Origin: Meghimatium bilineatum
Lineage: Eukaryota > Mollusca > Gastropoda > Stylommatophora > Philomycidae
Length of the DNA: 64,000 bases
Direction: 5' to 3'
NCBI GenBank assembly: GCA_034231615.1
Contig: CM067309.1
Coordinates: 39,835,627-39,899,626, forward strand
A program made the position numbers and the translations under genes. The first letter of the stretch is position 1. Each line of letters opens with the position of its first letter. Shown here one piece after another: positions 2,640 to 53,100 of the stretch. The notes below the pieces were generated by a model, which searched no databases, had not been told where the DNA came from, and saw only the letters and a list, made by a program, of their open reading frames with translations.

Positions 2640-3130
2640 GGAGTATCTTCTTCTTCTTCTTCATTGTTCTTCAGTCAGATATCAGGTTACAGCACCAATA
2701 GCTTCAATGAATTGTGTGATTCGCTTCAGGTCATCCATGGAACCCCTCAAGTCTGGAAGCAGTGCCGTCTCAGTAGGCCATATTTTCTCCCTCTCTTCTT
2801 GGTAGAGTTGACAGGCATGAAGAATGTGTTCTGTAGTCTCTGGGCTCAGTCCACAGTTGCACAGGTCCGTCTCACCAATCTTCAGCTTTCGGAACATGTG
2901 ACTTCTCAGTCTGTTGTGACCAGATCGTAGTCTGAAAATGATGGTTTGTTCCTTGCGTGACATTTGGTGGTAGGGGTCATTTGGTTCTGCAGTTGGGTGC
3001 ATTTGCTTCCACTTTTTCTTATATTCTGCTTTTAACATGGTCTTACTTTCATAATACATATTATCATTTTCTATTTGTTCCAGTGATCCCCCTTTCCTTG
3101 CCAGGAGATCAGCATTTTCATTTCCAACAG
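2640..3130 (-). mobile_element. LINE 3'-end fragment with RNase H edge and zinc-knuckle tail (family A)
   Basis: The minus strand encodes GNENADLLARKGG (end of RNase H), then LRSGHNRLRSHMFRKLKIGE, CNCGLSPETTEHILHAC and stop, typical of I/Jockey-group LINE tails. The 3' UTR is very short and ends in (GAA)n. About 140 codons are open. A second copy lies at 53955-54370. Confidence 0.85.
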
Positions 3131-3179
3131 GAGTATCTCATCAGCAGAACATTGTCACACTAGAGTTGTTGTCCATTAC

Positions 3180-4789: not shown

Positions 4790-5130
4790 ATATGAGTTAT
4801 GAACCAGCATCATAAAACATGATTTGTCTTAGTGCTCTGCTGTCTAGTCAGTGGTTGACCATAAACATTAAGTGCTCTGCTGTCTAGTCAGTGGTTGACC
4901 AGAAATTGCATAATTTCTCCTACTGCACTTATTCAGTAGTGATGGCATTATTCCTCAAGCATCCAAGAGCATGAGTCCTAGTGCCCTACTTCCTGGTTGA
5001 GCCACTGAAGTAATTTATATTTCAAGCCACCAAATTATGCGTGGATTCAAATTCTGGGTTTGTTAGTCAGCTGGTGAATGACTTAACATTATGACTCCTA
5101 AAGTTACTATGTATAAGCCAGAGTTTTTTG
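4790..5130. repeat. Dispersed repeat, inverted partner of 36330-36520
   Basis: Shares GTCTAGTCAGTGGTTGACCA, GGCATTATTCCTC and GCATGAGTCCTAGTGCCCTA with the reverse complement of 36330-36520. Its first part is itself duplicated (4830-4905). Confidence 0.6.
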
Positions 5131-6619
5131 CTGTCAATTCCAGATGTTTCGACCAGAAAATAACACAGTAAAAAGTCATTTAAACCATGTCAGTCACCAG
5201 CAACTATGTGTAGACACTGCTCTCGTGCCAACAAAACAGTTGAAAACCTCATTGACTACCTTCCCCCTCAACTGCCAGAAAAAACTTGACACCCTTACGT
5301 CACTAACTCACTGTATCAATCGCTATGTTAACTTCGCTATTTAACATAGAAGACACACTTTATTTTAGCTGCTCTCCACAAGATGGAGATACAATGAAAG
5401 ATTTCTATCCGAATTGTATTGGCATCAGGTGTATTCAACCACCTAACAAACATCTGGAAATCAAAAACAATAAGTATATGTACCAAACTATGACTGCTGA
5501 ACTCGCATGTAATGTCCGTATTAACATATGGTTGAGACAGCAGGAAAATAGAATAACTGTCAAAGAAGAAATTTAATTCATTTGAAAATACATGTTTTAA
5601 AGAAAACAAGCAAGAGAAGACAGAAATATGTTTCTACAACAATAAGAAGAAAACGATGGACAAGTGTAGAAGTGCTGAGCTTATCCTTGGTGGAGTGGTC
5701 ACTCCTCTTGACAAACTTTGATATTGTTCAAATAATAATAGAGTCAATCTTCTCTACGTTAGCTGCTAAAGTCTCCCAACAAACAGCAGGGTCTATAATA
5801 GTACATTGGTGGAAAGGTCATGCCTCTGACAAACTTTGATTTAGTTTTTCAAATAATAATAATATAGTGGAGGGGTCACAACTCTGATGAACTTTGGAAT
5901 TGTTGTTCAAATAATAACATGGCCAATCATCTCTACTTTAGCTGCACATGTCTCCCAGCTAAACCCACAATATGTTCCCAATCAGTACTCTCTTAGCGTT
6001 CGTACATCCAACCATATCTACAAACGTCTCATTCCAGAAAAAAAACTGGCTGCCACAACTAATCACCGTAGTAATCCTTACTGAATATCACCGTAACATA
6101 ATCCCTTTCTTACTGAATATCACTAACACAATCCCTTTATTATATGAAATCACAAAAGGTTTAAAGGAAGAAATGGAGTTGGCGGTTTCAATGTATAATC
6201 AGAGGTTGAGGTACATGACCGCACTCAAGGTAAATTACCCCATTCGGCGTAAAATACAAATTTCAGGGGTAACTAATGCTGGCAGTAAATTTCAAAGATT
6301 CATTTTTACAAAACAAAATTTGAATATGTAAATATTTAATGTATATCTATTATGCATTCCATTCTTTGGACTACACCCTATTAACTAACAAGAGTGTGAG
6401 AATGGAAAAATAAGACTTGGCTTCCATTTTACACATGAGGCAGAGGGACAGTCACTGAAACTAATTCTGATGAGCAGAGGTTCAACCTTGTTTCGTTTGT
6501 TTGAGAATCCCAGGAATTGCGAGAGATTAACTCATACTTCCTACGCGCAGTGGGGTGTTTTTTCTGAGCTTTCTTTCACACCCAGGAACTTCAGCTTTCG
6601 GCTTAGTGCGATGCCTATT

Positions 6620-6785
6620 GAAGGAATCTTCTACTTAGAGAGAGTCTATAATTGTATAGATGACATGCTATAAAGTTTCCGTAAGAGAGCCCAAAATATA
6701 ACGACATGTCATCATTTCTGTTGCAAGGGTAGTTTGTCTAGTGGTTCACTGGTAAGACCCACAGATGCAACCACATGCGTCGGTT
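6620..6785 (+). repeat. Dispersed repeat shared with 44820-44985
   Basis: Shared blocks: ACATGTCATC, TTTCTGTTGC and GTAAGACCCACAGATGCAAC. Confidence 0.5.
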
Positions 6786-6960
6786 CTTCTTCTTCTTCAG
6801 CGTTCATTCTCAAACTCCTGCTGGATCTCCTTTATAGCTGGACCATGGCCCTACTAGATATCCAGCAGGATGTAGTCCAGAGAATGGAAATGCGTTGTGT
6901 CACAGTTTTATTTTCGCCTTGGCCCGGCACATCCGTCTTCGGCAGAATGCATCAGTTCAA
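6775..6960 (-). mobile_element. Short interspersed family S, 3' variant
   Basis: Plus strand reads TTCTTCTTCAGCGTTCATTC then CTGGACCATGGCCCTACTAG and CCAGCAGGATGTAGTCCAGA, that is, an inverted copy with an extra palindromic segment shared with 23890-24060 and 28465-28635. Confidence 0.65.
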
Positions 6961-7011
6961 CCTCCAAATAATAGCCTATAACCTGGTTTGCTATCTGGAA
7001 GTGAACATATT

Positions 7012-7125
7012 TTACAGCAGCATCAGAAGACATTTTACTTTGTCCATGACTGTGCCACACTTCTCACTGGAAGCTAGAGATTGTAGTTGATGAACTTGAT
7101 CTGCATTCAGTATAGTTGTCTTTCC
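7012..7125 (-). CDS. TMCO6-like terminal coding exon
   Basis: Acceptor TTATTTTTCAG, phase 0, 37 codons then TAA at 7012-7014. It encodes GKTTILNADQVHQLQSLASS and a short helical tail ending KVKCLLMLL. TMCO6 also ends in a short helix (LQALERHQ...). No AATAAA was seen close downstream; a short interspersed element begins about 50 bp beyond the stop. Confidence 0.7.
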   Translation of the reverse strand, partial: GKTTILNADQVHQLQSLASSEKCGTVMDKVKCLLMLL

Positions 7126-10100
7126 CTGAAAAATAACATTTGTAATAACTGCAGAAAAACTGTAATCCAATGGGTTAAACTTAGAAAAGGGCGATGAAAC
7201 TTTGATAATCATTTGTAACACACATTCAATTCTGGATCTCCACAATTCTATTTCAAGTATCTTTGCTCATGATTGTTGTTGTCTCTGGTCATGCTATGAT
7301 ATCAGACTAATATTTTCTCATGCTGTTGTCCTTTATTTCTCCTGCCTTCTATTTTGTCTGTCCTAACTCGTCGTGTATGGTGGAATCTATTTTTTCTCTC
7401 CTGCTTTCAATCTTCCGTCCTAACTCATTATGCACAGTGGAATCCCTTTATAGCACATTCTTTTATAACAAATTTCCCCATATAACAACACTTTTCAAAA
7501 TCCTCAATTATATTTATTCTTTATACTGCATATAGTGAACTTCTGTTATTACATACATATTTTATCGGTCCGGAACCAAGTTGTTATAACGATATTCCAC
7601 TCGTATTTATGTTGTGCTACTGATGAAGGTCTTTTGGTAGAAATGAAGATTTTTGTGTTATGTATATTTTACCAGTGATTATCGAAACTTCATCACTCTT
7701 TCCGAAGTTTCACCTAGAAATCAATTTATTGTTACTAGATGTAAACAAAAATGTTTACAATTTAAAGCATATATAAATAATAGAAAACAGATTTAGCATC
7801 ATATGACACTTGTGTGTTGACAGGGCCTGAAAGGGGAGCACAACATAGCAACACTGACCTATCATGTATATCATAAGAGGTTTTGCGGTTGGTTATTCAA
7901 CTCCATAGGTCAGTGTCACTCAAAAGTCATGCTGAAATCGTATGTATCAGGCTGAAAGACAGAAATATCACAGTAAAGAGGTAAATCCCGCCCGTGTGTT
8001 GCAGCGCCCGAAAGGGGAGCAAAGAATATCAACACTGTTTACCTTCCACGCATGTCGTAAAAGGCGACTAGGGAGGTTATGGGATGGAGTTGGCTGTCCC
8101 ATCCCATATAGGGTCATCCCCTATGTCTCAAAAAGACACTCCTAATACCCTGATGGGTTATAAGTTATATTAATTATTATTAATAAGGTCTATGCAATAT
8201 ACGAAGATCAGTTTTCAATATCCATTCTCTGAAACTGTAACCATCCATTTCAGTGTGGTAATCCATACCATCCGCACACTTTGGCTGAAAAAGTTCTGGA
8301 TCTTTGAGAAACCCATTCTATTTACTGCCAACATGCATTAGAATAATGCATTGCCCTTTATTGTTTGGGATTTTCATTATTTACATTCAGTCAAATGATT
8401 GTCATTCTTTTTCATAATTATGTTTAGCATTTGTCCATGATTTGTTCAAATATATAATCTTATAGCCTTCCATGCATCATTTGCAGATCTGTCTCAAGTG
8501 TTTTGCTTTGGTCTGTAATCAGGTCCATCTTTTCATAAACAATATTCCATAACAATAATCCTGCAGTTTTTTTTAAAGCATGAAACCAACACCCCTTACA
8601 AGTTTCCACAGAATTTATTCTGATGATTCAATGAATTTTGAGTTTGTGAAGAGTAATGAGTAAATGTATTTTCTACAAACATTTTAAAGATTCTAAAATC
8701 TAATGATATCTCTTACCGAAATCACTGACTTTTATTTTTCTTGCATGTTTAACTGTACTCGCCGACGTACATTCAACCTGTTTTACCAAACAGAAAAATG
8801 ATTTACTGTCTACAACAAGATGACACCAAGCTCTCTTTCCCGATGTTGGGTGTAATAGATATCCTCTCTTCGCTTACATGCAGAAATGTCGGAACAACAT
8901 TTGCATAGTAACTAATCTATAATAGAAAGTAGGAAAGGAACATCAAACTTAGAACAAAGACTAAACACTTTTAAAATAAATGTCTTAGAAGGCCTTTAAA
9001 TCAAACACAACTGTCGGACAAGAATCAAAACAGGAATATGTATCCACCTATATTAGAAAGTGTCGCTGGAATTACACCGGACAAGCACTACGAAAGGATA
9101 CTGAAAGACTCTCATGTCAAGCTTTGATGTGGTCACCAAAGGGCAAGAGAAAACGAGGAAAACCAAAAGAAACTTTATGTAGAACTATTACAAGAGAACG
9201 TTTCACCATCGGTATCAGAAACAATGAAGATATAAAGCAAATTTCAATGAAACAAGAGACATTGGAAATCTATGACATCCGCCCTATGTGCTGTCTTTAG
9301 CCCTAGAGGAATAACTAACCAATCTGCACTTCAGAGTGAGTCATTGAGAATTTCATTTGTGCCAGCTTGGCATTATAATTTATATTGGTCTGCAATCCAA
9401 CTCTTGTACAGAATGACCTAGGCTGGTGGTGGGAAACATACAGCCAGTTAGCTAAACCATATCTAACGAAGATCTTCAGACATTTCCACAAGCAAATGTG
9501 AATAAACATACCTCAACTGATGTTCCTGTAATGAGACCAATCAGGATGTCTAAAACAGCTTCTTGTATTTGCTGTCTCGGGTCATCAAGTAACTTGACCA
9601 GTACACTTGCTGTCTCACGCTGGATAAGAAACTGGCAGATATAACTGGAGACTTTGCATGCAGCATCCAGAAGATACAAAGCCTAAAATATGAATTGACA
9701 TCAGAATGGTGTGTGTACACATACTTTCTCTATTTCTTTCATTTTTCTCTGCATTTCTATTCTTAATTACTGTTTTCTTCATATTTTTCTCTTTCTTACT
9801 TTCTTCATCTCTTCTTATCTATTGCTTTCTTTCTTTCTCTTTCTCTTTCTAGCACATAACATTATGTGAGTATACAAAAACAAGACTGATCGTGTAACAA
9901 ACAAGTAAATACTTTTACCCAATCCCCAGGATTGCAAGCTTTCACTCTTTCTTCCCTGTGCCAAATGGTGGTAGGTGCATATCGTTTTCAGCTGTGTTGT
10001 GGTTGTGTAAAGGGTGTTAGTGATGGAGGGGTTTGGTGGTAACAGTTGTTTTCGCATGTCTTGTATTGCTGAGCATTCAATAAGTTGGTGTTTTACTGTT

Positions 10101-13100
10101 TCTTTCTCGTCTGTTGCAGTATGGTGTATGGTCTGCAGTAACCCTTTGTAGATGTTTGTTAAGTTGTACATGTGCTGCTCACAGACTAAATATTGTGGTT
10201 TTATCTTTGCGGTGTAGTCTATTTATGCTGTCGTGTGGATTTGGCTGGGACACGTCTGCATATAGTACTCTTCCTTTTGAGTCAGTGCCCAGCGATCCAT
10301 CCATTGTTGTTTCGGATAATGTGTTGAGCTTAGCAAAGCATGACCACAGCCAGCAATGATCCTAGCCAGCAATGATCCTAGCCAGCAATGACCCTATCTG
10401 GGAATGATCCTAGCCAGCAATGACCCTAGCCAGCAATGACCCTATCTGGGAATGACCCTAGCCAGCAATGATCCTAAGAGAGCTAATTATTCACATCCGC
10501 GTGTTGAAATGCAAATTTATTCGATGGTAGCATCTCATATTCAGGATGTAGTGACTAAACCAACATTTCATTCGTACGTTGCCAGGGTCCAAAAGGGGAG
10601 CAAAAGAATGGTGACACTGTTACCTGACATGCATGTTCTACGAGGCAACTAAGAAAGTTTTCTGTGTGGAGTTGGCTGTCTCATCCTATAGAGTCAAGTG
10701 ACAGAAGTCATGCTGATATTGGATGTGTCCGACCAAAAGGCACGAATATTGCAGCCAATCTGTAAACCATGACACAGCATTCCATTCTCCAAACTACATC
10801 CTGCTAATCTGTAGGAATTTGAGAATGAACGCAGAAGAAGAAGAACCCTGCATGTTTAGCTGAAGTGACACTCTAGGCAATATTTACCTTCAGTAGGTTG
10901 TACTACACAACTGTTTAGAAAGACAAATAATGGAGGGAAGAGTACCTGGGTAGAGGAGAGAAAGGGCAGACCAAGAAGACGATGGACTGATGACATTAAA
11001 GATAACATGAATACATCGCTAGAAAATGCAAGCCACATCGCCCAAGACAGAGAGAGATTCAGAGAGTTCTTTGGGAAGACAACATTCTGGAAGGAATACG
11101 TCACATGACAGGTTGTACTTGCTTCAATGTCTGATAAGAATATACAGTGAAACAAAATACTTCAGCTGAAGCTTCTAATAAGGTCGACTTATTGTTGTGA
11201 TCTCATGATCCTGTTGGTATTAACAACAAGCGGTGGTGGAAGCAGATACTTACACTTAATGCCATTTCTTCATCAGAACTTTGACAACGCTGAAAAATCA
11301 ATTTTAGATATCCAGTGTGAAGAATGGACTGGACTCTACAACTTGGCTCAGCTGAAAAAAAAAAGTGAATAAAAATTATACAACAATCATTTCAAGACAC
11401 TAAAACATATGAACGCTCACCAACGACACCTATCAAAACAGATGTCCTTTCGCATTAATTGCACACGCTATAATCTAATTTCGCCCCCGACCATCATCAT
11501 CATCAAGTGCCGTCTCCGCAACGAAGGTTGGCTGCAACGTATCTCCAACATCTGTCTCTTGTCTTGGTGGTGCACTCTGCTAGACTGTAACCTGTCCATC
11601 GTGCAATGTTACTCTCCCACGTGTATCTCTGCCTACCTCTTGCTCGCTTCCCTTTGACTTTACCCTCAAGTAAGGTCTTCAATAGGGTGTCATGTCTTTT
11701 AATGTGTCCAAAGTATTTTATTTGCCTGATCTTTATTTCTCTTAGTAGTTCTTTCTTCATATTAAGTGTCTTTAGCACCTCTTTATTTGTTTTCTTCTCT
11801 TTCCATGATGTTCTCCCTATTCTTCTATATACCCACATCTCAAAGGCATCAATTTTGTCTTCTAATTGTTTATTTAGTGTCCATGTCTGTCCCTGACCAT
11901 AAGCTTGCACAAAGAAAAAGCCAACATCTCCTGTTATGACCATGTTAGACACCAGTCTTATTTTAAAAGGACATGCCTTGACAAGTAGCGGCTTCAATTG
12001 TATAATTAACAAACAAAACTTATTGCTCAATTGTTTATTCGTTTAATGTAGATCTGTGTGTCCAGGCAGCACCATCACATTGTGTATCCATGAAGCACCA
12101 CCACATTGTGTATCCATGAAGCACCACCACATTGTGTATCCATGAAGCACCACCACATTGTGTATCCATGAAGCACCACCACATTGTGTATCCATGAAGC
12201 ACCACCACATTGTGTATCCATGAAGCACCACCACATTGTGTATCCATGAAGCACCACCACATTGTGTATCCATGAAGCACCACCACATTGTGTATCCATG
12301 AAGCACCACCACATTGTGTATCCATGAAGCACCACCACATTGTGTATCCATCAGAATGAATGTGGTTTTATAATAACAAACAAAGAAACAGCTGAATGAA
12401 TGTGGTTTTATAATAACAAACAAAGAAACAGCAGAATGAATGTGGTTTTATAATAACAAACAAAGAAACAGCAGAATGAATGTGGTTTTATAATAACAAA
12501 CAAAGAAACAGCCGAATGAATGTGGTTTTATAATAACAAACAAAGAAACAGCCGAATGAATGTGGTTTTATAATAACAAACAAAGAAACAGCCGAATGAA
12601 TGTGGTTTTATAATAACAAACAAAGAAACAGCCGAATGAATGTGGTTTTATAATAACAAACAAAGAAACAGCCGAATGAATGTGGTTTTATAATAACAAA
12701 CAAAGAAACAGCCGAATGAATGTGGTTTTATAATAACAAACAAAGAAACAGCCGAATGAATGTGGTTTTATAAACTAAGAAACATATTAATAATGCAACC
12801 TATAAAGTTTCCCAATATCCAAAGTGATTCTCTCTGTATGAACTCTATGTCACTGGTGAGAAGGAAGTAAAGTGTCTGTAAGAAGTGACGGTGGCTGGAA
12901 GCTATTAAAGCAATCAATGGACTCAATCCTATCATGTTACCCAAACAATGCAGGTAAGGAAGAATTATCTGAAAGAAATACAGAGAAATTGTTGGCAATA
13001 GTGACAATTATTATCAAACTCATAGACACACAACAATTAGTGAGGTACTTTGAAACAAGTAAAAAAAATATTTTTGAATAAAATCATTAAAAGAAAAACC

Positions 13101-16100
13101 AAAAAACTAAACGATAAACATTTTTCTTTTTGATAAAGCACATTCTTCATTCTTTTAACCTAGTTGTATCTATGACTCCGATCATTATTGGAGTAGGTAG
13201 TTTGATTACCAATAATAAGTCATTCAATCAGGTTAAAGAAACAGGTCTAGTGATAAATTATTCCAAGCATGTTAAAAAATGTCTAGCGATAAATTATTCC
13301 AATGCTGGATTTGAATAAGCACAAGGCAGATGGCGTAACTACTATGCCAGAGAAATTCCCCCCATAATGTATAACACAATAATTAGACTACATGAAGAAA
13401 ATCTATACAAAATGTGCCAATAGTAAAAGTTCCTCACCTTATCTTCTCTGATCTGCCAATAGTAAAAGTTCCTCACCTTATCTTCTCTGATCTGCCAATA
13501 GTAAAAGTTCTCACCTTATCTTCTCTGATCTGCCAATAGTAAAAGTTCCTCACCTTATCTTCTCTGATCTGCCAATAGTAAAAGTTCTTATCTTCTCTGA
13601 TCTGCCAATAGTAAAAGTTCTTATCTTCTCTGATCTGCCAATAGTAAAAGTTCCTCACCTTATCTTCTCTGATCTGCCAATAGTAAAAGTTCTTATCTTC
13701 TCTGATCTGCCAATAGTAAAAGTTCTTATCTTCTCTGATCTGCCAATAGTAAAAGTTCCTCACCTTATCTTCTCTGATCTGCCAATAGTAAAAGTTCCTC
13801 ACCTTATCTTCTCTGATCTGCCAATAGTAAAAGTTCTCACCTTATCTTCTCTGATCTGCCAATAGTAAAAGTTCCTCACCTTATCTTCTCTGATCTGCCA
13901 ATAGTAAAAGTTCTTATCTTCTCTGATCTGCCAATAGTAAAAGTTCTTATCTTCTCTGATCTGCCAATAGTAAAAGTTCCTCACCTTATCTTCTCTGATT
14001 TGCCAATAGTAAAAGTTCTCACCTTATCTTCTCTGATTTGCCAATAGTAAAAGTTCCTCACCTTATCTTCTCTGATCTGCCAATAGTAAAAGTTCCTCAC
14101 CTTATCTTCTCTGATCTGCCAATAGTAAAAGTTCCTCACCTTATCTTCTCTGATCTGCCAATAGTAAAAGTTCCTCACCTTATCTTCTCTGATCTGCCAA
14201 TAGTAAAAGTTCCTCACCTTATCTTCTCTGATCTGCCAATAGTAAAAGTTCCTCACCTTATCTTCTCTGATCTGCCAATAGTAAAAGTTCCTCACCTTAT
14301 CTTCTCTGATCTGCAAATAGTAAAAGTTCCTCACCTTATCTTCTCTGATCTGCGACAGTTTTGTTATCACAGAGAGCACAATAACATTGTAATGGTCTTT
14401 ATGTTCTAAATATGTCTCCTGTCTGTAATGATACAAGATGATAGTGTTTATAACTATATTTTTAGACAAGAATTTGCTGCCTGAGAATTTATTGAGTTTA
14501 TTTTAATCACCAGGAATTATGAGCAATATAGCTCTTGTATCATTTTATGCAATTGTGGTGTGTTTCTTCCAGATCTATATATCATATCCCAACTCTCCAA
14601 GGTGTACACGATGCTTTGAGAAGCCTTCAACTCAGTTTGTTAAGTTATTCCTCTAGGGCCAAAGATAGCACATAAGGCGGATGTCAGATTTCCATGTCTC
14701 AAGTTTCATTGCAATTTGTCTTAGGTCTTCATTGTTTCTTATACCGATGGTGAAGCACTCTCTTGTAATAGTTCTACGTAAGGTCTCTCTCTTCCTCGTT
14801 TTCTCTTGCCTCTTGGTGACCACATCAAAGCTTGACAGGGGAGTCTTTTGGTATTCATTCACACGCGTTACCGATGTAATTCCAGCGACACCTTCTAATA
14901 TAGGTGGATACGGTACATATTTTTACCTTGACCAGCCCACCGGCTTTCACTAATACCAGTAATATCTAAGTTGTAATCACACATTACACGACACATTTGA
15001 CTTGTCTATGTTGTAATCACACATTACACGACACACTTGACTTGTTTTTCCAGTTTGAAACACCGTTCTTAGTTTCAACTCAGAGGGGAAAAAAAAAATA
15101 AAAAACACTGGTTTCCAATCCAAAGATTGTGACCCCCAAAACAGGGGTCATAGTCTGATGATGATGAGATAACTGATCCCTTTAGCTGTGAACATTTAGC
15201 TCTTGACAGCCCATAACCTTCCTGACAGAAGCTAAGTCCTCCTCAGCTGTCTCAAAGGCATGTTGTGTAAGGAGGTTTATGGATGCATATATAAATAATC
15301 AAAATATCGGAGGATGTCGGACAAAATGGAAAGTGCTGCAGTAACCAGACAAATCTATTGTTTTATGGATGCATATTTAGCCCTTGAAGGGAGGCCATCT
15401 AGTGCAGTAGTAACCCAGAATCACCTCATCCTGCCAGGAACACAGCATATACACTTATATTTCATTACTTATATGTCAAATATTTCATTATTCTTCGGTC
15501 AGATCTGTTGACCCATCTGCAGTGATGACACACTCAGTACTCCCTGCCACTTTAGAGTCTGTCACAAAAGGACAAGGTGCAATGTTCACTGGCCTGCATC
15601 TCTCCGTCATCCATGGGGTCCATTTGGCAGAAGACAAGTAAAAACTGAGACAAGACATGCAGTAACATTGATTTTTCTCACAAGTGACAAGATAGAGTGA
15701 CAAGTGACACTCTATCCCCTAACTTTCCGTAGTCACCTCCTACAAGTCACAATCTGAAATATTAAACTAAAAAGATATTGATTTTAAAGGAATTTTAATT
15801 TGCAAACACTATCTTAAAGTTAAAAAAACCACTGAAAAATCTATTTTTGACGTTTCCATAAGTTAAAATTAGACTGAAAAATCCATTTTTGATGTTTCCA
15901 TAAGTTAAAATTCGACTGAAAAATTTATTTTTGATATGTTTTATGTTTCCTTATTACAAATTTTAAAAATAAATGTGCCAGGGTAGCAGGTAATTTTGTT
16001 TTTATTTTTAAAAGTGCCACTGTCATTTTTCTGTTGAAGATTGTATTTTCGTTGTTGACACATTCAGGATGTATGCATCCCGATGGCACAGAATAATTAT

Positions 16101-19100
16101 GACATTTTTCAGGACAAACCAACTGCCACCTTAGCATGTCCAAATGTTTTCTGTTCTCTGTCAATGTCCAAATGTTTTCTGTTCTCTGTCAATGTCCAAA
16201 TGTTTTCTGTTCTCTGTGAAACTGTTTGCTGTTGATGTTAAAATACAAATCTGACATGACTTACCTGCTATAAATCAAGTTACACAACCACCCCACCTCC
16301 AAAACAAAGTCACATGATTCATCTAGTGTTCTAAGCATAAGTTCCATGTGATCAAATAATGAATTGTCAAGCATACATCTGGAACAGAACAATTTATTTG
16401 TGAGCCAACAGTTGTATCTCATTATAGTTGGGCATTTTTATTTAAACAAGTGCAATTTAAATTGAAGGAAGTAATGCTCTACATTGCGCAATGATAATGT
16501 TCCTCCTTCGCAAGCATAGCATGAAAAACAAAAAACATATGAGAGGAAAATGATGAAGAATAAAACATTGGTAGTTGCCTATTTTGGTTTTGGTTTGTGA
16601 GTTTGTAGATGTCAGAGGAGTCCGATTCGTGCCAGGAAAGATATTTTGCAGTGTGTGCAGTGCATGAGAGAAGAGGGTCTCGAGTGAGAGCATTTCAGAT
16701 CATTCCTTTCGTTTTTGTCTTTTGTAGATTGCCCGCAGTGTACTTTCTTGTTTGAATTTTGTGATGTTAGCGGTGATCTGAGTGTCAAGAGCAATCAAGA
16801 GCTGTAGTTTCCCAGAGGCTTGGATCAATGCTACAGTGTATGAGGGAGGTCTTTAAGTAATCCTTGAAGCGATTTTTTGTGCTTGAACGCTTACCATCTC
16901 ACAGCTCCCCATAGAACAATCTCTTTAGAAAATACATGTCTGGCGTATGGATGAAGTGGCCGGTACAGCGGAGTTGGGATGTAATCAACAAGGCATGGAT
17001 GCTTTTCATAGAATTTTTGAAGAATTTCATGTCTGATATTTGATTCAGTCAACATACTCCAATAAGATTTTTTAGGCACCGAAGGTAGAAAGGTTAAGCC
17101 GTCGAGCATGTCTTGCATAGACAGTCCAGGATGATGCAGCATAAAGCAGTGTTGGTAGAACTTGTGCGGTAGACGTCCAACTTAGTTGTCAAACTGAGAC
17201 CACGCCTGATCCAGACGTTGGCAGGAAGGCTCCCGAAGGCCACATTGACCCGAGCAGTACACAGAGCAACATATACATCAATTGTCGCAGTTTGTAATAG
17301 GGTGCAGCTATATACCAACCTATCAGCAGTGTTGAGTTTCTGTCCTTTCACTGTGATTACTGGTTCTGTGTAGTAGAAACATTGCATGAAGTAAGACACA
17401 CACATTTCTTAACTTTTATCTTCTGTCAAATGGTCCCCATGGATGATGGAGAGATGCAAGCTAGTAAACATTGCACCTTTGTCCTTTTGTGGCAGACTGT
17501 TAGAAGTTGGGGAATGTTAGGTGTACCATCATTGCAGATGGGTCAACAGATCTGACGGAAGACTGATGAACTAGTTGTCCTGGATGTACATGCTGCACTA
17601 CTAGCAGGAGGTGATGACCAGTGAGATACTGCCACAATGGAATGCCTCATTTTGGGGATTAAACATGCATCCATAAACCTCCCTTAAGATACCCTTGCCT
17701 TTGAGACAGCACATTTTTGCTTTTGAGTGTTACTTCTGTTACACAACTTGGGAGATACTATTCTTTTGTCAGAAAGGTTACAGGCGGTTACGAGCTACCT
17801 GCTCACAGCTGAAGGGATTATTTGAGCTACCTGCTCACAGCTGAAGGGATTATTTGAGCTACCTGCTCACAGCTGAAGGGATTATTTGAGCTACCTGCTC
17901 ACAGCTGAAGGGATTATTTGAGCTACCTGCTCACAGCTGAAGGGATTATTTGAGCTACCTGCTCACAACTGAAGGGATTATTTGAGCTACCTGCTCACAG
18001 CTGAAGGGATTATTTGAGCTACCTGCTTACAGCTGAAGGATTATTTCATCATCATCAGACTACAGCTGTTACGAGCAAGTTTATCCGTTCCTCAATTTGA
18101 CTGCTATTGACATTTTAACCCATTTTATTTCAGGTTATCTATCTCCTCATTGTTACACAATAAGTTCACTCTAAAATTGGCAAGTGTCAACCATCTCATC
18201 AGCAAGTGTCAACCATCTCCTCAGCAAGTGTCAACCATCTCATCAGCAAGTGTCAACCATCTCATCAGCAAGTGTCAACCATCTCATCAGCAAGTGTCAA
18301 CCATCTCATCAGCAACTGTCAACCATCTCATCAGCAAGTGTCAACCATCTCATCAGCAAGTGTCAACCATCTCATCAGCAAGCATTAAAACCATCTCATC
18401 AGCAAGCATCAACCATCTCATCAGCAAGCGTCAACCATCTTATCACCAAGCATTAAAACCATCTCATCAGCAAGCATCAACCATCTCATCAGCAAGCATC
18501 AACCATCTCATCAGCAAGCATCAACCATCTCATCAGCAAGCATTAAAACCATCTCATCAGCAAGCATCAACCATCTCATCAGCAAGCATCAACCATCTCA
18601 TCAGCAAGCGTCAACCATCTTATCACCAAGCATTAAAACCATCTCATCAGCAAGCGTCAACCATCTTATCACCAAGCATTAAAACCATCTCATCAGCAAG
18701 TGTCAACCATCTCATCAGCAAGCGTCAACCATCTTATCACCAAGCATTAAAACCATCTCATCAGCAAGCATCAACCATCTCATCAGCAAGCGTCAACCAT
18801 CTTATCACCAAGCATTAAAACCATCTCATCGGCAAGTGTCAACCGTCTAATCCACGATGTATATATTTTTTGGTGTTAATAAAAAGCCAGTACATGAAAT
18901 CTCTCTTATTTTTTTCTTCTTATTTTATAGAAAGAATCGGTATAGGCAGTAAGTTATTGTGGAAAGAATTGAACACAGCTGGGATCGATTACCAAAAACA
19001 AAGTTGCAGCTAAAGAGTACAGGTGAGAAAAGATGATATGTACTAACTGTATGAGATGATATGTACTAACTGTATGAGATGATATGTACGAACCGTATGA

Positions 19101-22100
19101 GATGATATGTACTAACCGTATGAGATGATATGTACGAACCGTATGGGATGATATGTACGAACCGTATGAGATGATATGTACGAACCGTATGAGATGATAT
19201 GTACGAACCGTATGAAGGAATAATCACTATCTCTAGCTAGGTTCACAAGGGCAAACAGCGCACTCTGCGACCTCGCTTCTAGGCTCAGATGATATTCCTG
19301 GTGGGAAATATGAATTTGTCTGAATTTTATCAAACATTTTAATTAGAATTTTAGTTTGAGTGGGGCATAAGTTGGTTAGTTACTTATCCAGCTAAACATT
19401 TTAACTATAATTGATTGATAGTCTTACATTTTTTTTTGGGTGGGGCACACAGCAGCTGTTGGTTGGTTGCTGATCCAGCTTCCCATGCCCCTTGACCCAT
19501 ATTATAATGCTGGGAAGTCTGAATTTTTGACCCAACCCTGGCCAAAAATAATTATCCCACCACCAGGAAGGTAGGTTTCTAACTATACACTGCTCCAAGC
19601 CACTGCAGCCAAGATACGGTTCAATGTGCTCATTCCCCACCACCAATTTCCTACTGGTTATGCTGAACTTCTCTATGGCTCTAGGCATGTAACAAAATGT
19701 TCAAGGCAAAAGGCTTGTCACGTCCTGAGTCACTGTAAAACTTTGTTGTCGCTAGTTGAAACTGTTCACATAAGTATTGATATTTGACAGTGGTTGAAAC
19801 TGTTCATATAAATATTGATGTTTGGCAGTCGTTGAAACAATTTACACAAATATTGATGTTTGGCAGTCGTTGAAACTGTTTACACAAATATTGATGTTTG
19901 ACAGTGGTTGAAACAGTGTTCACACATCTAGAGACAAACTGTTGATATGTGGAGATGGAGACAGCAAAATAATTATGACCATAAATACAGTAAGCGCTTT
20001 ATATTTAAAAAAATGTTTGGGCTGTTAGCGACAAATACTACAACGTCCTTTGGAACATGCACCAAAGCTTAGAGAGATTGACATAGGAATTGTTTGTGGC
20101 CGTAAAATATGTTTCAGTTAAACTGGAAATCAAATTTTACTAATAATAATTGAAACAGATCCTGTACAAGATAGTGCTATTCAACTATTGTTGAATATGA
20201 AGGGAAATGAATGAACTGACAAGTTGGTGGGTTCTGCTACTATAACAGGTAGTCAACCTATGAACAAAGCAGATATACTCAATGTTCTATGAGAGTCTGC
20301 ACGATTGAAGGTCAATGTGCATGAGTTAATATTGAGAAAGCACAAATTGGGGGTAAGGATAGGCGTGGAAGTAAAAAAGCACCTCACGAAAATTTCAAAA
20401 TAACACTCAACCAACAACGAATAAGAACTATGAGTCGCTACACCGTAAGAGATTTTCTGAAGACGATATCCGAGTACCTATGTTCTCGGTGTGTGAAGAT
20501 GATAATCAACATACCTAAACCTATTATTAAATGTTGTATATCTGACTACAGTGTAACCAATCTGCTTTTCAACCATGAACTAATTCAACCAAGTTTGGAT
20601 TGGAGGCGGGCCCACTAACCACCCTGCCGCTAAGCCTAACAGTACTTGCATATAAACACTTACTGAAGAGACTAATGTAACAAGTGGAGCCATACAGCCT
20701 TGCTGTAGAAGAAGTTCTCTATGTTTATGAGAATCGCCAGCAAAATTTCCAACAGCCCAGGCACAAAGTTCCTGATAAACATATAAACACATAAAATATT
20801 ACGATAAATATATAAACACATAAAATATTACGATAAACATATAAACACATAAAATATTACGATAAATATATAAACACATAAAATATTACGATAAACACAT
20901 AAAATATTACGATAAACATATAAACATATAAAATATTACGATAAATATATAAACACACAAAATATTACGATAAACATATAAACACATAAAATATTACGAT
21001 AAACATATAAACACATAAAATATTACGATAAATATATAAACACACAAAATATTACGATAAACATATAAACACATAAAATATTACGATAAACATATAAACA
21101 CATAAAATATTACGATAAACATATAAACACATAAAATATTACGATAAACATATAAACACATAAAATATTACGATAAACATATAAACACACAAAATATTAC
21201 GATAAATATATAAACACATAAAATATTACGATAAATATATAAACACATAAAATATTACATTTTGAAATATGTATATAATAAAATTCAATGATCATCATAA
21301 ACATTAAGTGCTGTCTTCGCAATGGACCTCCAACATCCCATCTCTTGCCTTGGTGGTGCATTCTGTCAAGACTAACCTCCCCATTCTGTGATCTTTCCCT
21401 CCCACTTGCATTTCTGTGTACATACTCTTCCCACCTCGACCTTCACCAAGTAAGGTCTTCAACAAGGTGTTATGAACTTTAATATGTCTTAATATGTGTT
21501 ATGAATTTTAATACTTTATTTGTTTAATCTTTATTTATTTGAGTGCTTCTATTTTCATACGAAGTGTTGCTAGAACCTCTTTGTTCATTTTCTTCTCTTT
21601 CCATGAAGTTTCACCTATTCTTCTATATATCCACATCTTAAAGGCATAATATAAAAGTTGAATGCAATGGATAATGCATATCCATAAAACAGTTGGATGA
21701 CTCATAACCCTTCAGGGTTGTAAGAATACTACATCGGAACATCAACGCACAGTACTACAATGATGCTATAGAGTAGTTAAACCATGAACTGTCCATTCTA
21801 TACTGTTGTGTGTGCATGATTGTTTTGTCTTCCTCAATTAATTCTGCCTTTTTATTGCTCCATGTAGGCATGCATGCTTCCCTCCCATGTTACAACGACA
21901 TGTATTCTCTTGCTGTTGCCACATCATGTACAGGGTGGTTTTGTAATTTACACTCTGACAGAAAAAAACCCAGTCCTTACCGAGGATCAAATACAAGACC
22001 TCATCGGTGTGAGACCAAAGCTCTAGCTTCTCAGCCATGTGACACAAAATAATAAAACTATTCATTACAAATTTAAAAACTATCTACTAACAATTAAAAT

Positions 22101-25100
22101 CTCTTTTCTAAAAATAAAATAGCTATTTACCAAAAATAATAAAACATTTTACAAACTATTTATTAAAAATAATAAAACTATTTACTACAAATAATAAAAC
22201 CTTCAACGCAACAAAATAATTTCAATTCAAAACATTTGAAACTTTGTTTAGATACCTGCATCTGTGGATCCGTCCCTTGCATAAACTGGATAATCAGAGA
22301 AGATATTTGTGCCATGCTATTAACATTAAGGGAGGTACAAGCAGACAGATTAACAAGACAATACGCAGCTGCCTGCAGCACTTCAACATCCGTGGATAAC
22401 AAACAGCGTTGTAAAGTCTGCAATCCGTCATTTCTGTAGATGTAGTGTAAAGAAAGAAATTCACAGAGGTTACTAATAAGAAAAATGGAGTTTGGAAAGG
22501 CTGAATATTATTATTTTGTGATCTCTTTTCTGGATGCAGAGCCCGGAGCAAAGTTCTCCACATGGGAGCACATCACCCCCCCCCCCCATATCACTGCGGT
22601 TCACTGTGGGGCCACGGCCCACCTATAATTATTCAGACCATATTTAATAAATCATATAATAATAAGACATGGAAAGCTGACAAGTTTTTTTGTTAATCCC
22701 CTATATGGAGCACACGGAAGAAAATGTATCCTGAAAGGGGGCCATGAGTAAAAATAAATCATCAGAAGCACTAATCTAGAAAACAGAATGTGTTGCATCA
22801 TGGTGTAGTTTGCTTGCAACAGTAACACTTTTCTACCTGACACATCCAACTTCAGCATAGCATTTTTAGATCACTAACTCTTCTACAGAGCTGTGGTAAC
22901 CAGCTCCGTAAAGTAAATCCAGGAATAGGGTAATGAAGTTTTGCTAATCACATAATAACACACACAAATCGACTTTTTGACCAAAAGGCCTTTATCAAGA
23001 CAAAAATTTAAATTAAATTAAAACATACAACAGAAAACGGACAGTAAGGATATGGATGTTCACATTGGCATGTGTAATATAGATCGCCAACTCTCTGTCA
23101 CCATTTGAAAAGAAAGTACAAGGGAATAAAAGAATTCTGTATTAGCTACAAAACACAAGTTTACAGAGGAGACGAATCTCCAGATATTGGGACATTCCAG
23201 GTGAACACGAGAAGAAAATCATCACTTTGACAACATAAATGGCAGGTGTAAAATATAATATGAGGAGTGAGGTAGTCTAGTGGATAGTGAGCTTGCCTGC
23301 TATCATCTGGTTACAGCGTGCCAGGTTCAAAACCACGTCCGGACATTTAAAAATAAAAACAAAAAAATCCGGGTTGTGATTTCTCACTTGACACGACCAC
23401 TCCTCCAGTTGACTCAGCTGTAAATGAGTACCTGATGCATGAGTTAGGGAAGGTAAAAACAGCAAGGAAGGGAACTGGCCACCCCACCTAATAGTTGCTG
23501 TGGTTTAGTACATGAAGAGTTACAAATATCTTCATCCCTGACGGCAGATGCCATGGGACCTACCTTTACCTTTACAATATAATATACAAGCATCGAGGAT
23601 TTATTATTAAAGAAAAATCATAAAGCAGAAAATGGGATTTGAACCAGGTCCTCTCAGATAGCACCTACTCGCATTGCTACTTGAGTCAACATATTTTGTG
23701 TCTTCGACGACACTGAATACCCCAGTGGTTCAAATCCTGTTTGTTGTCTTTGATTCTTTGTTCTCAATTTGGACCCTGACAACAAGCAGGTACTTTGTTG
23801 ATATAAGTACCAGGGGGTGTTGTTGTTTCGATTCTAGGAATTCCGAGTAATTAGTTTTTAATTTTTATGTGCAGTGGGTCTATCAATCAAATCTTCTTCT
23901 TCTTCAGCCTTCATTCTCAAACTCCCACTGGATCTCTCTTATAGCAAGACAATGGTCCAACTAGACTTCCAGCAGGATGTTATCCAGAAAATGGAAATGC
24001 GTTGTCGCCGTTTTATTTGCGTCAATGGCCCGACACATCCATCTCAGCAGAAATCAACCAATCAAGTGCCATGTGAGTGGCATAAACGATCATGTTTCTC
24101 CACAACTCAGCCTCTTGAGTTGTTGATAAGTTCAGTTTTTTTGTAACAGTTTTTCTGTAACTTATCCAGCCATTTCTCTCTGTCTCTTCTAACAAAAGTA
24201 GCAATAGGATTAAAAGTTATGGAAGTCCAAAAGTAGCACTAGGATTAAAAGTTATGGAAGTTCTTAATAATCTATTTCAACTAGCATGACACACATAAGA
24301 CATCAATAATAAGTAATAACTGCAGTAAAACTATAATCCAACAGGTGAAACTTTAAACGTGTAATGAAATTTTGATAATCACCTGTAACACATATAACAC
24401 ACTAATCTATGTTTTGACCAAAAGGCTTCTGTCAAAAACACAACGCAATACACGAAGAGTAAGACTGTTCATGTTCACCCATCACATGATCATTTGTTAC
24501 ATTCACTTTTGAAATTAAGTTAGTTATGTCCTTGACTCAGTATGTATATGGCAAATAAGCCCTACTTTGGCCACAAATCTCCTTGCACAGTTCGAGCATG
24601 AGATAATTACTGTAGATGGTTTTTGGTCTACCCGTGACTTTCTACTTATGTCCACATATTAAATTGCTAGACAAGATAAAGCCAGAAGTGTATGAATGAT
24701 GAAAATACTAGAAGGATCGAGAAGAAACAAAACCACACAGAAAGTTGACAAAATATCACAGGATATTGACAAAATGAAACAAACATAAAAATAGTGAACG
24801 TAACCTGATATCTGCACATATGAATGACGGATGTTAATCCCAAAGAGCTGTAGTATGCCAATTTGGTAGAAATACCGGTTCCCATGTAGTCATTAATGGA
24901 GCATAATTTAACTAGAATCTGTAGATGCCCGAGAACTGGTATATCCAACAATTTGGCAAATTACAGCCCTTTGGGATTAACATATTTCATTCATATATGT
25001 AGATATTCTGATATGTTATACCATATTTCGGTTTATTTTGTCGATATGCAGCGATATTCTGTCACTCTTCTGTTTGGTTTGTTTGTTTGGCGTTTGCTCC

Positions 25101-47100: not shown

Positions 47101-50100
47101 ACGTATATTTTGTACTTACAACACAAATAGGTAACGTATATTTTGTACTTGAAATACAAACAACGAACATATATTTTGTACTTGAAATACAAACAACGAA
47201 CGTATATTTTGTACTTGAAACACAAATAACTAACGTATATTTTGTACTTAAAACACAAATAGGTAACGTATATTTTGTACTTGAAATACAAACAACGAAC
47301 ATATATTTTGTACTTGAAATACAAACAACGAACGTATATTTTGTACTTGAACCACAAACAACGAACGTATATTTTAAGACATCCACTATCGACGGTGCTT
47401 TAAAACTGCTGTTTCAACAATATTACTTACGTAGAGCACATGTTTTTGATGTACTTGAAGACAACAGACGAACCATAACTAAGACTAAGGGGTTATGAGT
47501 GTTAACACGAAAACATACAAATTACAATACACAAGACATTTGTGTTCAAGTGAAACATCAAAAACCTGTGTTCTACGTAACTACTATTGTTGGTCTGTTT
47601 CACTGCAGTATTACCTTATAATGCTTTTAACTATGCGATTCTATGTTCTTATATTCATTCAACAATTAATCAGACGCTGTACCTTCTATAGGAATAACGA
47701 GATGAGGATCTTGACCGTGACTTGGACTCAAATCTTGACCGTGACTTGGACTCAAATCTTGACCATGACTTGGACACAAATCTTGACCGTATCTTGGAGT
47801 CAAATCGTGACCTCGACTTGGAATCAAACTGTGACCGTAATTTCGACTCAAATCTTGACAGTGACTTCGACTCAAATCTTGACAGTGACTTGGACTCAAA
47901 TCTTGACCCCACAGTTTTCCCAGTGACACGTCCATCGGCACTTAATTTTGTGCCTTTTTGACCACCGCTTTCGTACACAACACACGGTTTTTGTGCTAAA
48001 GAGGAACAAGAGACCGCAGTACGCTGATGAGAAGAATACACAGAGGAACTGACATCTCTTCCATGTAGACTTGACCTGCAGCACACAAGAAACACATTAA
48101 AAAAAATATAAATACTGTAGTTAGAATATATTCCTATCAGATAAGAACATTTACAAATCAGAGGAACATTAAAAAATCTGAAGAGCATTTACAAATTAGT
48201 GGAAAATTTAAAATTAGAAGAACATTTACAAATTGGAGAAAATTTTTTTAAAAGGTGATAGAAATGATGCGGTGTTTTTCATGACACTATTTGATACGGT
48301 CAGGGCCGGTCTTAGGCCATTGCAAAGTATGCGGCCGCAGTGGGCCCCGCACTTCATAGGCCCATAAATTCATATTAGAATTTATTTTATTATCATCTTC
48401 CCTACCCAGACTGGGCCCCGCACAATCCGTTTCGCTTTGGGCCCCTTAATTGTTAGGGCCGGCCCTGGATACGGTGTACGTTTTCATGACACTATTTGAT
48501 ACCGTGTACGTTTTCATGATACTATTTGATACCGTGTACGTTTTCATGACACTGATATCGTGTACATTTTCATGATACTATTTGATACCGTGTACGTTTT
48601 CATAACACTATTTGATACAACAGAAGTTGCAGGATGAATTAGAAATTGCTAAAAGTACTTTCAATGACATAAGGAAAATATGAACATTCAAGCTAGTCGC
48701 CAGCGCATCATCTTGGCATATGATGAAATCCCAGAATTGCTCCAATCTCAAATTCAGTATGTCCTTCAGCATGTGGTAACTGACTGTTCCAGTTCTATGT
48801 TGGTTGATAACTCTTCTTTTGGATTCCTATATGCAGCTCGTTTCTTGCAACACCACACTTCACTTCACTCACAAGTTCTGAATTCTAGCTATAGACACAA
48901 AAGATAAAATGCACCTTACATCTTCCAACTGGTATAACTCCATGATTGCATTCAAAATATCAGGACAGTATCAAAATATCATAAAATACCACCAGTCATT
49001 GTGGCCACGCTGGCAAGTCTGTCTGCTCTTTCATTTTTCCCTAACACATTCGTGTCCGTACTCAAATGTAGGTAACTGTTCATCAACGATTCCTACCACT
49101 GTATCTACTACCCCTACCCCTACCACTACATCTACTACCCCTACCACTACATCTACTACCCCTACCACTACATCTACTACCCCTACCACTACATCTACTA
49201 CCCCTACCACTACATCTACTACCCCTACCACTGTATCTACTACATCTACTACCCCTACCACTACATCTACTACCCCTACCACTACATCTACTACCCCTAC
49301 CACTACATCTACTACCCCTACCACTGTATCTACTACCACTGTATCTACTACCCCTACCACTGCATCTACTACTCCTACCACTGTATCTACTACTCCTACC
49401 ACTGTATCTACTACTCCTACCACTGTATCTACTACTCCTACCACTGTATCTACTACCCCTACCACTACATCTACTACCCCTACCACTACATCTACTACCC
49501 CTACCACTACATCTACTACCCCTACCACTACATCTACTACCCCTACCACTACATCTACTACCCCTACCACTACATCTACTACCCCTACCACTACATCTAC
49601 TACCCCTACCACTACATCTACTACCCCTACCACTACATCTACTACCCCTACCACTATATCTACTACCCCTACCACTACATCTACTACCCCTACCACTACA
49701 TCTACTACCCCTACCACTACATCTACTACCCCTACCACTACATCTACTACCCCTACCACTACATCTACTACCCCTACCACTACATCTACTACCCCTACCA
49801 CTACATCTACTACTCCTACCACTGTATCTACTACTCCTACCACTGTATCTACTACCCCTACCACTACATCTACTACCCCTACCACTACATCTACTACCCC
49901 TACCACTACAACTACTACCCCTACCACTACATCTACTACCCCTACCACTACATCTACTACCCCTACCACTACATCTACTACCCCTACCACTGTATCTACT
50001 ACCCCTACCACTACATCTACTACCCCTACCACTGTATCTACTACCCCTACCACTGTATCTACTACCCCTACCACTACATCTACTACCCCTACCACTGTAT

Positions 50101-53100
50101 CTACTATCCCTACCACTACATCTACTACCCCTACCACTGTATCTATTACCCCTACCACTACATCTACTACCCCTACCACTACATCTACTACTCCTACCAC
50201 TGTATCTACTACCCCTACCACTGTATCTACTACCCCTACCACTACATCTACTACTCCTACCACTGTATCTACTATCCCTACCACTACATCTACTACCCCT
50301 ACCACTGTATCTACTACCCCTACCACTACATCTACTACTCCTACCACTGTATCTACTATCCCTACCACTACATCTACTACCCCTACCACTACATCTACTA
50401 CTCCTACCACTGTATCTACTATCCCTACCACTACATCTACTACTCCTACCACTGTATCTACTACCCCTACCACTACATCTACTACCCCTACCACTACATC
50501 TACTACTCCTACCACTGTATCTACTACCCCTACCACTACATCTACTACTCCTACCACTGTATCTACTACTCCTACCACTGTATCTACTACCCCTACCACT
50601 ACATCTACTACCCCTACCACTGTATCTACTATTCCTACCACTACATCTACTACCCCTACCACTGTATCTATTACCCCTACCACTACATCTACTACCCCTA
50701 CCACTGTATCTATTACCCCTACCACTACATCTACTACCCCTACCACTACATCTACTACCCCTACCACTACATCTACTACCCCTACCACTACATCTACTAC
50801 CCCTACCACTGTATCTATTACCCCTACCACTACATCTACTACCCCTACCACTACATCTACTACCCCTACCACTGTATCTACTACCCCTACCACTACATCT
50901 ACTACCCCTACCACTGTATCTACTACATCTACTACCCCTACCACTGTATCTACTACCCTACCACTGTATCTACTACCCCTACCACTACATCTACTACCCC
51001 TACCACTGTATCTATTACCCCTACCACTACATCTATTACCCCTACCACTACATCTACTACCCCTACCACTACATCTACTACCCCTACCACTACATCTACT
51101 ACCCCTACCACTACATCTACTACTCCTACCACTGATGGCATAAAATAACCGGACAAAATTTGTAGAATGATACTCTTAGAATCGGTAAGAAAACAGATAG
51201 GTCTACCTACCTACAGTACTATGACACGACGGTCATATCATTGCCCGGATCTCCGCCATCACCTCATTCGTCATACTACAAGTGATTGCACAGAAGATAC
51301 AACTTCCTTCCCTAATATTAACATCTAAACAAATCATAAACTAACAATAAGAACTGTAGAATTCTACGCCTATTCTATATTAATGTATGGCTCAGAAACA
51401 TGGATACTCAACAAACGACTAGAAGATAGAATTAGATGCCTTTGAGATGTCGATATATAGAAGCAGAGGAGGACAAATAAAGACATGGACAGACAACATC
51501 AAGGAATGGACAGACAACATCAAGGAATGGACAGGGCAAGATATTTCCACACTCATCCGCATCGCCGATGATAGAATTCGCTGGAGACTCTGTGTGCTGA
51601 GGCATCCAATGTGGTACCCCTACGACCCTGAAGGGTTACGGGTTTATTCATTGATTGATATAGAAGAATATGGAGAACTTCGTGGAAAGAGAAGAAAACA
51701 AAAAAGTTCAGACAACACTGCGTATGGAAATGAACCATTACAGGAAATAAAGATCAATCAAATAAAATATTTTGCACATGCTAAAAGATATGACACCTTG
51801 TTGAAGACAGTACTTGAGGGTAGAGTTTGTGAGGAGCAGCTAGAGGTAGGCAGCAGAGATAAAAGTGGGAGGGTCAGATAATGAGATGGACAGGTTACAT
51901 CTAGCAGAGTAGACCGTCACAGGAAGAGACAGGATGTTGGAGGCCCTTTGCGGTCAATTTTCGTTGCAGAGACGGCACTTGATGATGATAAATATATAAC
52001 GTAATGAAGGAATAATAACAAGAAGATAGGTCAAAAAGACGTTTTTTTAAATTTTAAACGCTTCTTCTTCTGCGATCAATTGTAAAACATCCAGTTCAAT
52101 ATTGTTCATGTATAGAGCAGTTTGTTAAACATTCAGTCAAATATTGTTCATGTATAGAGCAGTAGTCCTTCCTATAAGATTTCCAGCAGGATATAGTTCA
52201 GAGAATGGAAACGCGCTGTGTCACCATTTTATGTGCGTCAATGTCTTAACACATCGGTCTTCGACCGTGGTGAAAGTGCAACATTCGTATACATTAACAG
52301 CGGTTCTCTGTTGTTATGAGAGACCACATGCCCTTAAAATTGATTGCTTTTTCCTTGTTATGTTTGTGGTCTCGATTATTTCCTCTTCTGCGATTGTTCT
52401 CAAACTCGTTTACATTAACAGAATGTAGTCCGGAGAACGGATTGCGTTGTGCCATGGTTTACAGCTTAGATGCAATATCTGCACTTTTAAGCCGAACACA
52501 TCCGACTTCAGCATGGGTTCTAGGTAATTTGGCCCTCTATGAGATGATACAGGCAACTCCACCCGCAAAACATCCTTAGTCATTTTTACGATGTGCATGG
52601 CAGGTCATATAGTCACTACTTTTTTGCTCCCGCATTCGGACCTCAGCATCACACGGGCGAGTTCCCCCTTTTTGTGGTATATTCTTTTATGCATTATTTG
52701 TTAATTTTATTTTTGTGCCCATTAAACGGGAAAGTACCGAACAAAATTACATAGACATATAACAAATTCTACCAAACATTTAAATAATAAACAAAAAAAT
52801 TATATCCCACGCTATAAAATATCATTCTAAAACAGTCTCAGAATTCATAGTGGCAGGATTACACGAACCGCAACATTCATTTTTTTCATTATTCATTATT
52901 TATAGTCACACGCTGCTGACTGAATGTATTTATAAATTTGCCTAGAAAATGACTACAGCAAATAAATGTTGAGTTTATGGTTACATACAGAATAGGATAT
53001 GTTACCAATGGAAAACAAAAAATTATGCCAGAACATGGAGAAAATATACATACTAAAAATATACGAATGTGGATCACATAAAATATACATACCAAAAAAT

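Follow-up and report, generated by a model that had tools for sequence, protein, structure and literature searches.

A tandem array over an exon end and its 5' splice site in an importin-alpha-like armadillo gene of the slug Meghimatium bilineatum

An 88-nt exon of a slug armadillo gene (exon A, 14335-14422, minus strand) ends inside the first unit of a 25-unit minisatellite (13417-14352, minus strand) that contains 19 GT donors; coordinates are those of the window, the whole 64-kb stretch of DNA that was analyzed. We consider there to be a good probability that this is a tolerated splice-junction minisatellite, with its first donor used by all or nearly all transcripts. This reading builds on the array and its units, the frame of the host gene, the abundance of minisatellites in the sampled parts of the genome, and the other arrays found on likely exon ends, all of which are observed. 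The feature is real and its cause ordinary, and any function is putative.

Structure of the exon A array

TRF delimits the array at 13415-14353 with a period of 39 nt, 25.1 copies and 95% matches, and unit-by-unit analysis resolves it into 25 head-to-tail units on the minus strand, the first beginning at 14352 and the last ending at 13417. Unit 1 comprises the last 18 nt of exon A, the hexamer GTGAGG, and 15 further intron bases; its donor reads AAG/GTGAGG, with the canonical GT at 14334-14333. Counting outward from the exon, units 1-12 are 39 nt (eight consecutive units), 38, 39, 33 and 33 nt long, and units 13-25 are 39, 38, 39, 39, 33, 33, 39, 33, 33, 39, 38, 39 and 39 nt long. The array is far beyond chance, and it takes up 918 nt of the 1366-nt intron between exons A and B. 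A sequence-only reading of this DNA had placed the exon A junction in the first of 25 units and had described the eight units nearest the exon as all 39 nt with intact GTGAGG, and both descriptions agree with the unit analysis. It had also taken all 25 units as copies of the exon end plus its splice site, and here the unit count stands while the donor count does not. GTGAGG is retained in 16 of the 25 units (each 39 nt), and three others (each 38 nt) have GTGAGA after a 1-nt loss; the hexamer is lost from the remaining six (each 33 nt), which have no GT at that place, and there are therefore 19 donors rather than 25.

The 33- and 38-nt variants are spread in blocks with a higher-order period of 221 nt, and the variation inside the array looks like copying rather than selection. 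The higher-order period shows that unlike units were copied jointly as blocks, and as few as two events may account for all nine altered donors. Selection against decoy donors in the distal units was considered and dropped, as the two variants recur in these copied blocks. A similarity search with the array gave seven matches, three of them the array itself; the other four, on contigs C11 and C1, are 66-67% identical (E values of 1e-8 to 4e-10).

The host gene

The host gene has nine minus-strand exons between 27359 and 9512, which have AG/GT borders and form one open frame of 366 codons. Exon E1 (27253-27359) encodes a basic N-terminal segment that is IBB-like by eye. The next three exons are E2 (25362-25468), with the inferred donor TTAG/GTTCTT, E3 (22256-22433), which encodes an armadillo repeat, and E4 (20664-20771), with the acceptor TATCAG/GAACTT. 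Exon E5 (19209-19297) has a phase that fits the next exon and an inferred donor, ACG/GTTCGT, that falls within unit 1 of another array and is weak (U1 duplex energy of -3.3 kcal/mol). Exon E6 (16265-16378), located upstream of exon A, has the donor GCAG/GTAAGT. Exon A is supported by its frame, its AG/GT borders and importin alpha alignments, and exon B (12800-12968), the next after it, has the acceptor TTTCAG/ATAATT and importin alpha alignments that run through the A-B junction. The start of exon C (9512-9651) was picked by phase and by eye against importin. The less certain points of the model are the 5' end of E1, the weak donors of E2, E5 and B, and the acceptor of C.

The conceptual product of the nine exons matches Pfam Arm (E value 4.8e-15), and importin alpha chains match the protein as well, the best natural chain with an E value of 9.4e-19 over residues 86-317; the protein has Arm repeats, and its similarity to importin alpha extends across several of them. 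These matches support the earlier assignment to an armadillo protein, and the host appears to be an intact importin-alpha-like armadillo gene, putatively TMCO6. Pfam searches of the three minus-strand frames of 5001-14601 gave no match, probably because the exons are short, and the window likewise had no Rfam hit at the gathering threshold and no tRNA hit. A genome-wide protein search with exons A and B found these two places only, among the matches listed, and the same search yielded no retrocopy that would reveal which donor was spliced.

The A-B junction is best judged from three alignments of the first-donor product to importin alpha. Those to 20ze and 20yg cross the junction with no gap, and in that to 4tnm the importin is longer by 3 residues just before it. 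An earlier alignment of an A-B piece to 3tj3 places 63 query residues on 62, and another A-B importin alignment places 81 residues on 81, but with merely four before the junction. Gapless or near-gapless alignment through the junction leaves no room for an added 13-residue unit, and the conserved junction therefore corresponds to the first donor. An insert at this point would presumably sit at the loop that joins helix 2 to helix 3 within a single armadillo repeat.

Coding potential and donor strength

The protein unit of the array is QIREDKVRNFYYW, but unit 1 reads ...FYYL. Use of donors 1-9 would lengthen exon A in frame by 0-8 copies of 13 residues with no stop, and donors 10-19 would all run into a single TAA in unit 10; the frame is open only as far as donor 9 because the 38-nt unit 9 shifts it into this TAA. 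The earlier claim that the donors nearest the exon add whole 13-residue units in frame holds, and extends as far as donor 9; donors 10-19 meet a premature stop. A bank of donors making a variable loop would keep the frame at all or most of its sites, and here nine of the 19 are in frame and open and ten reach the stop. We regard the open 39-nt unit as weak evidence for coding, since a third of all periods are divisible by 3 and the E5 array, in the same gene, has a period of 23. The U1 duplex energies of all 19 donors are nearly equal (-10.1 or -9.6 kcal/mol), and because the donors are about equally strong with U1, use of downstream donors is physically possible.

Arrays at other splice sites

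Two other arrays lie at splice sites of the host gene. A 23-bp minisatellite of eight copies (19031-19215, minus strand) overlaps the end and inferred donor of exon E5, and read in the exon frame it changes frame at every 23-nt unit and reaches a stop after about 30 codons. A 29-bp minisatellite of 17 copies (20774-21258, minus strand) ends 2 nt before the E4 acceptor, and the 3' end of that intron is almost wholly repeat. A further pair of different minisatellites (26 bp, 11 copies; 40 bp, 10 copies) sits back to back at 12055-12773, beginning 26 nt past exon B.

Tandem arrays with at least 4 copies and periods of 10-100 are dense throughout the sampled parts of this genome (1.61 Gb in 32 contigs): the 64-kb window contains 27, five other places totalling 50 kb contain 12, and the 93 kb surveyed around 29 dynein exons, in stretches that partly overlap, contain 10. 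The dynein set derives from 30 fetched loci, several overlapping and some with stops in the match, from which one (L063) was left out because its match was spurious, lying in a stop-containing repeat. Minisatellites abound in the sampled genome, and an array on a junction is not unusual for it; at this density, the summed periods divided by the length give a chance of about 0.4-1.35% that a random seed would span any given junction. Other repeats in the window include a 21/42-bp array of about 96 copies at 48882-51143 (plus strand) that is open in several frames; one plus-strand frame is mucin-like, (TTPTTTS)n, with a 626-residue run of T, P, S, V, I and A only, and the GC skew over 48001-52000 is -0.51. 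Fragments at 10856-12042, 2682-3137 and other places resemble, by eye and by their motifs, the reverse transcriptase or C-terminal part of non-LTR retrotransposons.

In the host gene three of ten arrays touch an exon edge, against 0.45 expected under uniform placement (P 0.008), and with the exon A array left out the figure is two of nine (P 0.055). At the dynein loci three of ten arrays are at an exon edge, against 1.23 expected (P 0.03), all three at acceptors and none at donors. These counts hint at an excess of arrays at exon edges, and we take them as a hint only because the acceptors of three dynein loci were set by eye and the rest by profile match. The most extensive dynein case is a 57-bp array of 18 copies across the 3' splice site of a stalk exon (L059, 482-1526) that includes 26 nt of the exon, an acceptor counterpart of the exon A donor array; at two more dynein acceptors (L057 and L073) arrays end 3 and 5 nt before the exon.

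Donor-bearing arrays were counted genome-wide as three occurrences of AGGTRAGT spaced 10-40 nt apart, a pattern that matched 7019 times, compared with 4384, 6925 and 9756 times when three control words were used. They are abundant but, by match count, not special, and we claim no enrichment of donor words among arrays, as 7019 falls inside the control range. Counted by eye among the 100 matches listed per search, the first 16.4 Mb of C1 contains 13 distinct arrays with the donor word against 3 with TGAGGART, and the first 2.7 Mb contains 6 arrays with the backwards word, 2 with the donor word and 2 with TGAGGART.

The upstream flank was read for 12 of the 13 distinct AGGTRAGT arrays among the matches listed, excluding the one at 16.43 Mb. 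Three are at likely exon ends with weak family support, three at possible ones, and six have no coding sign by eye. The likely cases are two 20-bp arrays on the ends of near-identical BTB-like exons (BTB_2 match with an E value of 6.2e-4, 0.9 bit under the cut-off) and a 31-copy array with a 21-bp unit at the end of an HRDC-like exon (L029 from 1490, at about 4.23 Mb of C1; HRDC match with an E value of 0.002, under the cut-off). The possible cases (L023, L024 and L026) were recognized by frame and AG alone; Pfam searches of L023 and L024 gave no match, and L026 is too short for a search. In the exon frame the HRDC-like array is open for about 130 codons, and the 20-bp BTB-like arrays and the 36-bp array at the putative exon L026 stop at once. 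Of the four donor arrays for which there is exon support, the exon A and HRDC-like ones keep frame over many units and the BTB-like and E5 ones do not, and two cases are too few to show selection.

Comparison with known splice-junction repeats

Repeats of this kind are known from intron 7 of human F7, for which Borensztajn et al. 2006 is the primary paper. There, 37-bp repeats duplicate the donor, the repeat varies between individuals, and normally only the most upstream donor is used (PMC6627357). The exon A array is alike in that its unit 1 spans the exon end and the 5' splice site, authentic by frame and homology, and near-identical donors follow in further intronic units (19 of the 25 units carry a donor). 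It differs in its 25 units, 19 donors and first nine donors in frame, and in lying in another gene and animal; moreover, the choice of the most upstream donor is established for F7, whereas for the slug array it is predicted. De Grassi and Ciccarelli (2009) described internal tandem repeats at exon-intron boundaries in human segmental duplications (PMC2812944). Those repeats are likewise tandem, placed at exon-intron borders and able to alter splicing, but they show copy-number differences between recent paralogs with RNA support, whereas in the slug a single gene copy was found and the data are genomic. In C. elegans the intronic minisatellite CeRep25B is over-represented near alternative splicing regions (PMC4039745); it too is a minisatellite tied to splicing in an invertebrate, but it is a named repeat, whereas the exon A array is a local copy of one exon's own donor. 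No invertebrate report of such splice-junction arrays was found in the open-licence literature. F7 and PMC2812944 already define this kind of repeat, and the exon A array is therefore a further case and not a new kind, notable for its copy number and for similar sites in the same genome.

Discussion

We propose that the array began with the duplication of about 39 bp that by chance spanned both the last bases of exon A and its 5' splice site, and that slippage or unequal exchange then amplified it. The extra copies would have grown into the intron and left the first donor beside the exon, and all or nearly all transcripts would use the exon-proximal GT at 14334. U1 recognition would be coupled to the exon, such that the first strong donor wins as reported for F7 intron 7, and the other 18 donors would be spliced out with the intron; longer in-frame or stop-containing products would be rare at most. 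Like the F7 repeat, the array is probably a by-product of a repeat-rich genome, and the spliceosome likely uses its first donor only. Against this, the scanning rule was established in mammals and may not apply to the slug, the U1 energies are nearly equal, and the HRDC-like 21-bp array is a second in-frame case; the possible exon-edge excess and the 13 donor arrays against 3 TGAGGART arrays on C1 (by eye, among the matches listed) would also be unexpected under pure chance.

The sequence-only reading proposed a bank of alternative 5' splice sites, in which several of donors 1-9 would be used and one to eight copies of the 13-residue unit placed between two helices of one armadillo repeat, giving a length-variable protein. 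The anatomy of that proposal survives, as donors 1-9 differ little or not at all and each keeps an open frame, the first eight units are uniform, and the HRDC-like array at a likely exon end is similarly open, but we think a working bank unlikely: uniform units are equally expected from recent copying, only nine of the 19 donors are in frame, and the added residues would lie within a compact armadillo repeat at a place where the importin alignments have no extra residues and no room for a unit. The BTB-like and L026 arrays stop at once and the E5 array shifts frame, and frame keeping is therefore not general. We favor a tolerated minisatellite over a donor bank because F7 intron 7 normally uses only its most upstream donor (PMC6627357). 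It is similarly improbable that the surplus donors serve as decoys or regulators that bind U1, slow or misdirect splicing, or cause decay via donors 10-19, with array length tuning the mRNA level. Ten of the 19 donors would give a premature stop, and by analogy with the variable F7 repeat, array length is likely to vary between individuals, but the donor-word counts inside the control range genome-wide argue against strong selection.

A dead gene or an unreal exon A, with the array merely an intergenic repeat, is hardly credible: the inferred donors of E2, E5 and B are weak and joining B to C required choosing an acceptor, but nine AG/GT exons give 366 codons without a stop and the protein matches both importin alpha and Pfam Arm at the E values given above. 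A broader reading, in which splice junctions are preferred birthplaces of minisatellites in this genome and banks of donors or acceptors are read in several ways, with unit number setting in-frame protein variants in the armadillo and other genes, we hold to be very unlikely.

How the splicing machinery chooses among several equal donors is an old question, for which the F7 locus offers a published natural case, and this genome seems to hold several natural cases bearing on it, with varied unit lengths, copy numbers and frames and at donors as well as acceptors; there are probably many more. The HRDC-like array is another candidate for tests of donor choice. For the armadillo gene alone the likely answer is that nothing unusual happens, and the main worth of these arrays would be as a natural set of competing identical donors, a test bed for donor choice and for the rule that the first donor wins.
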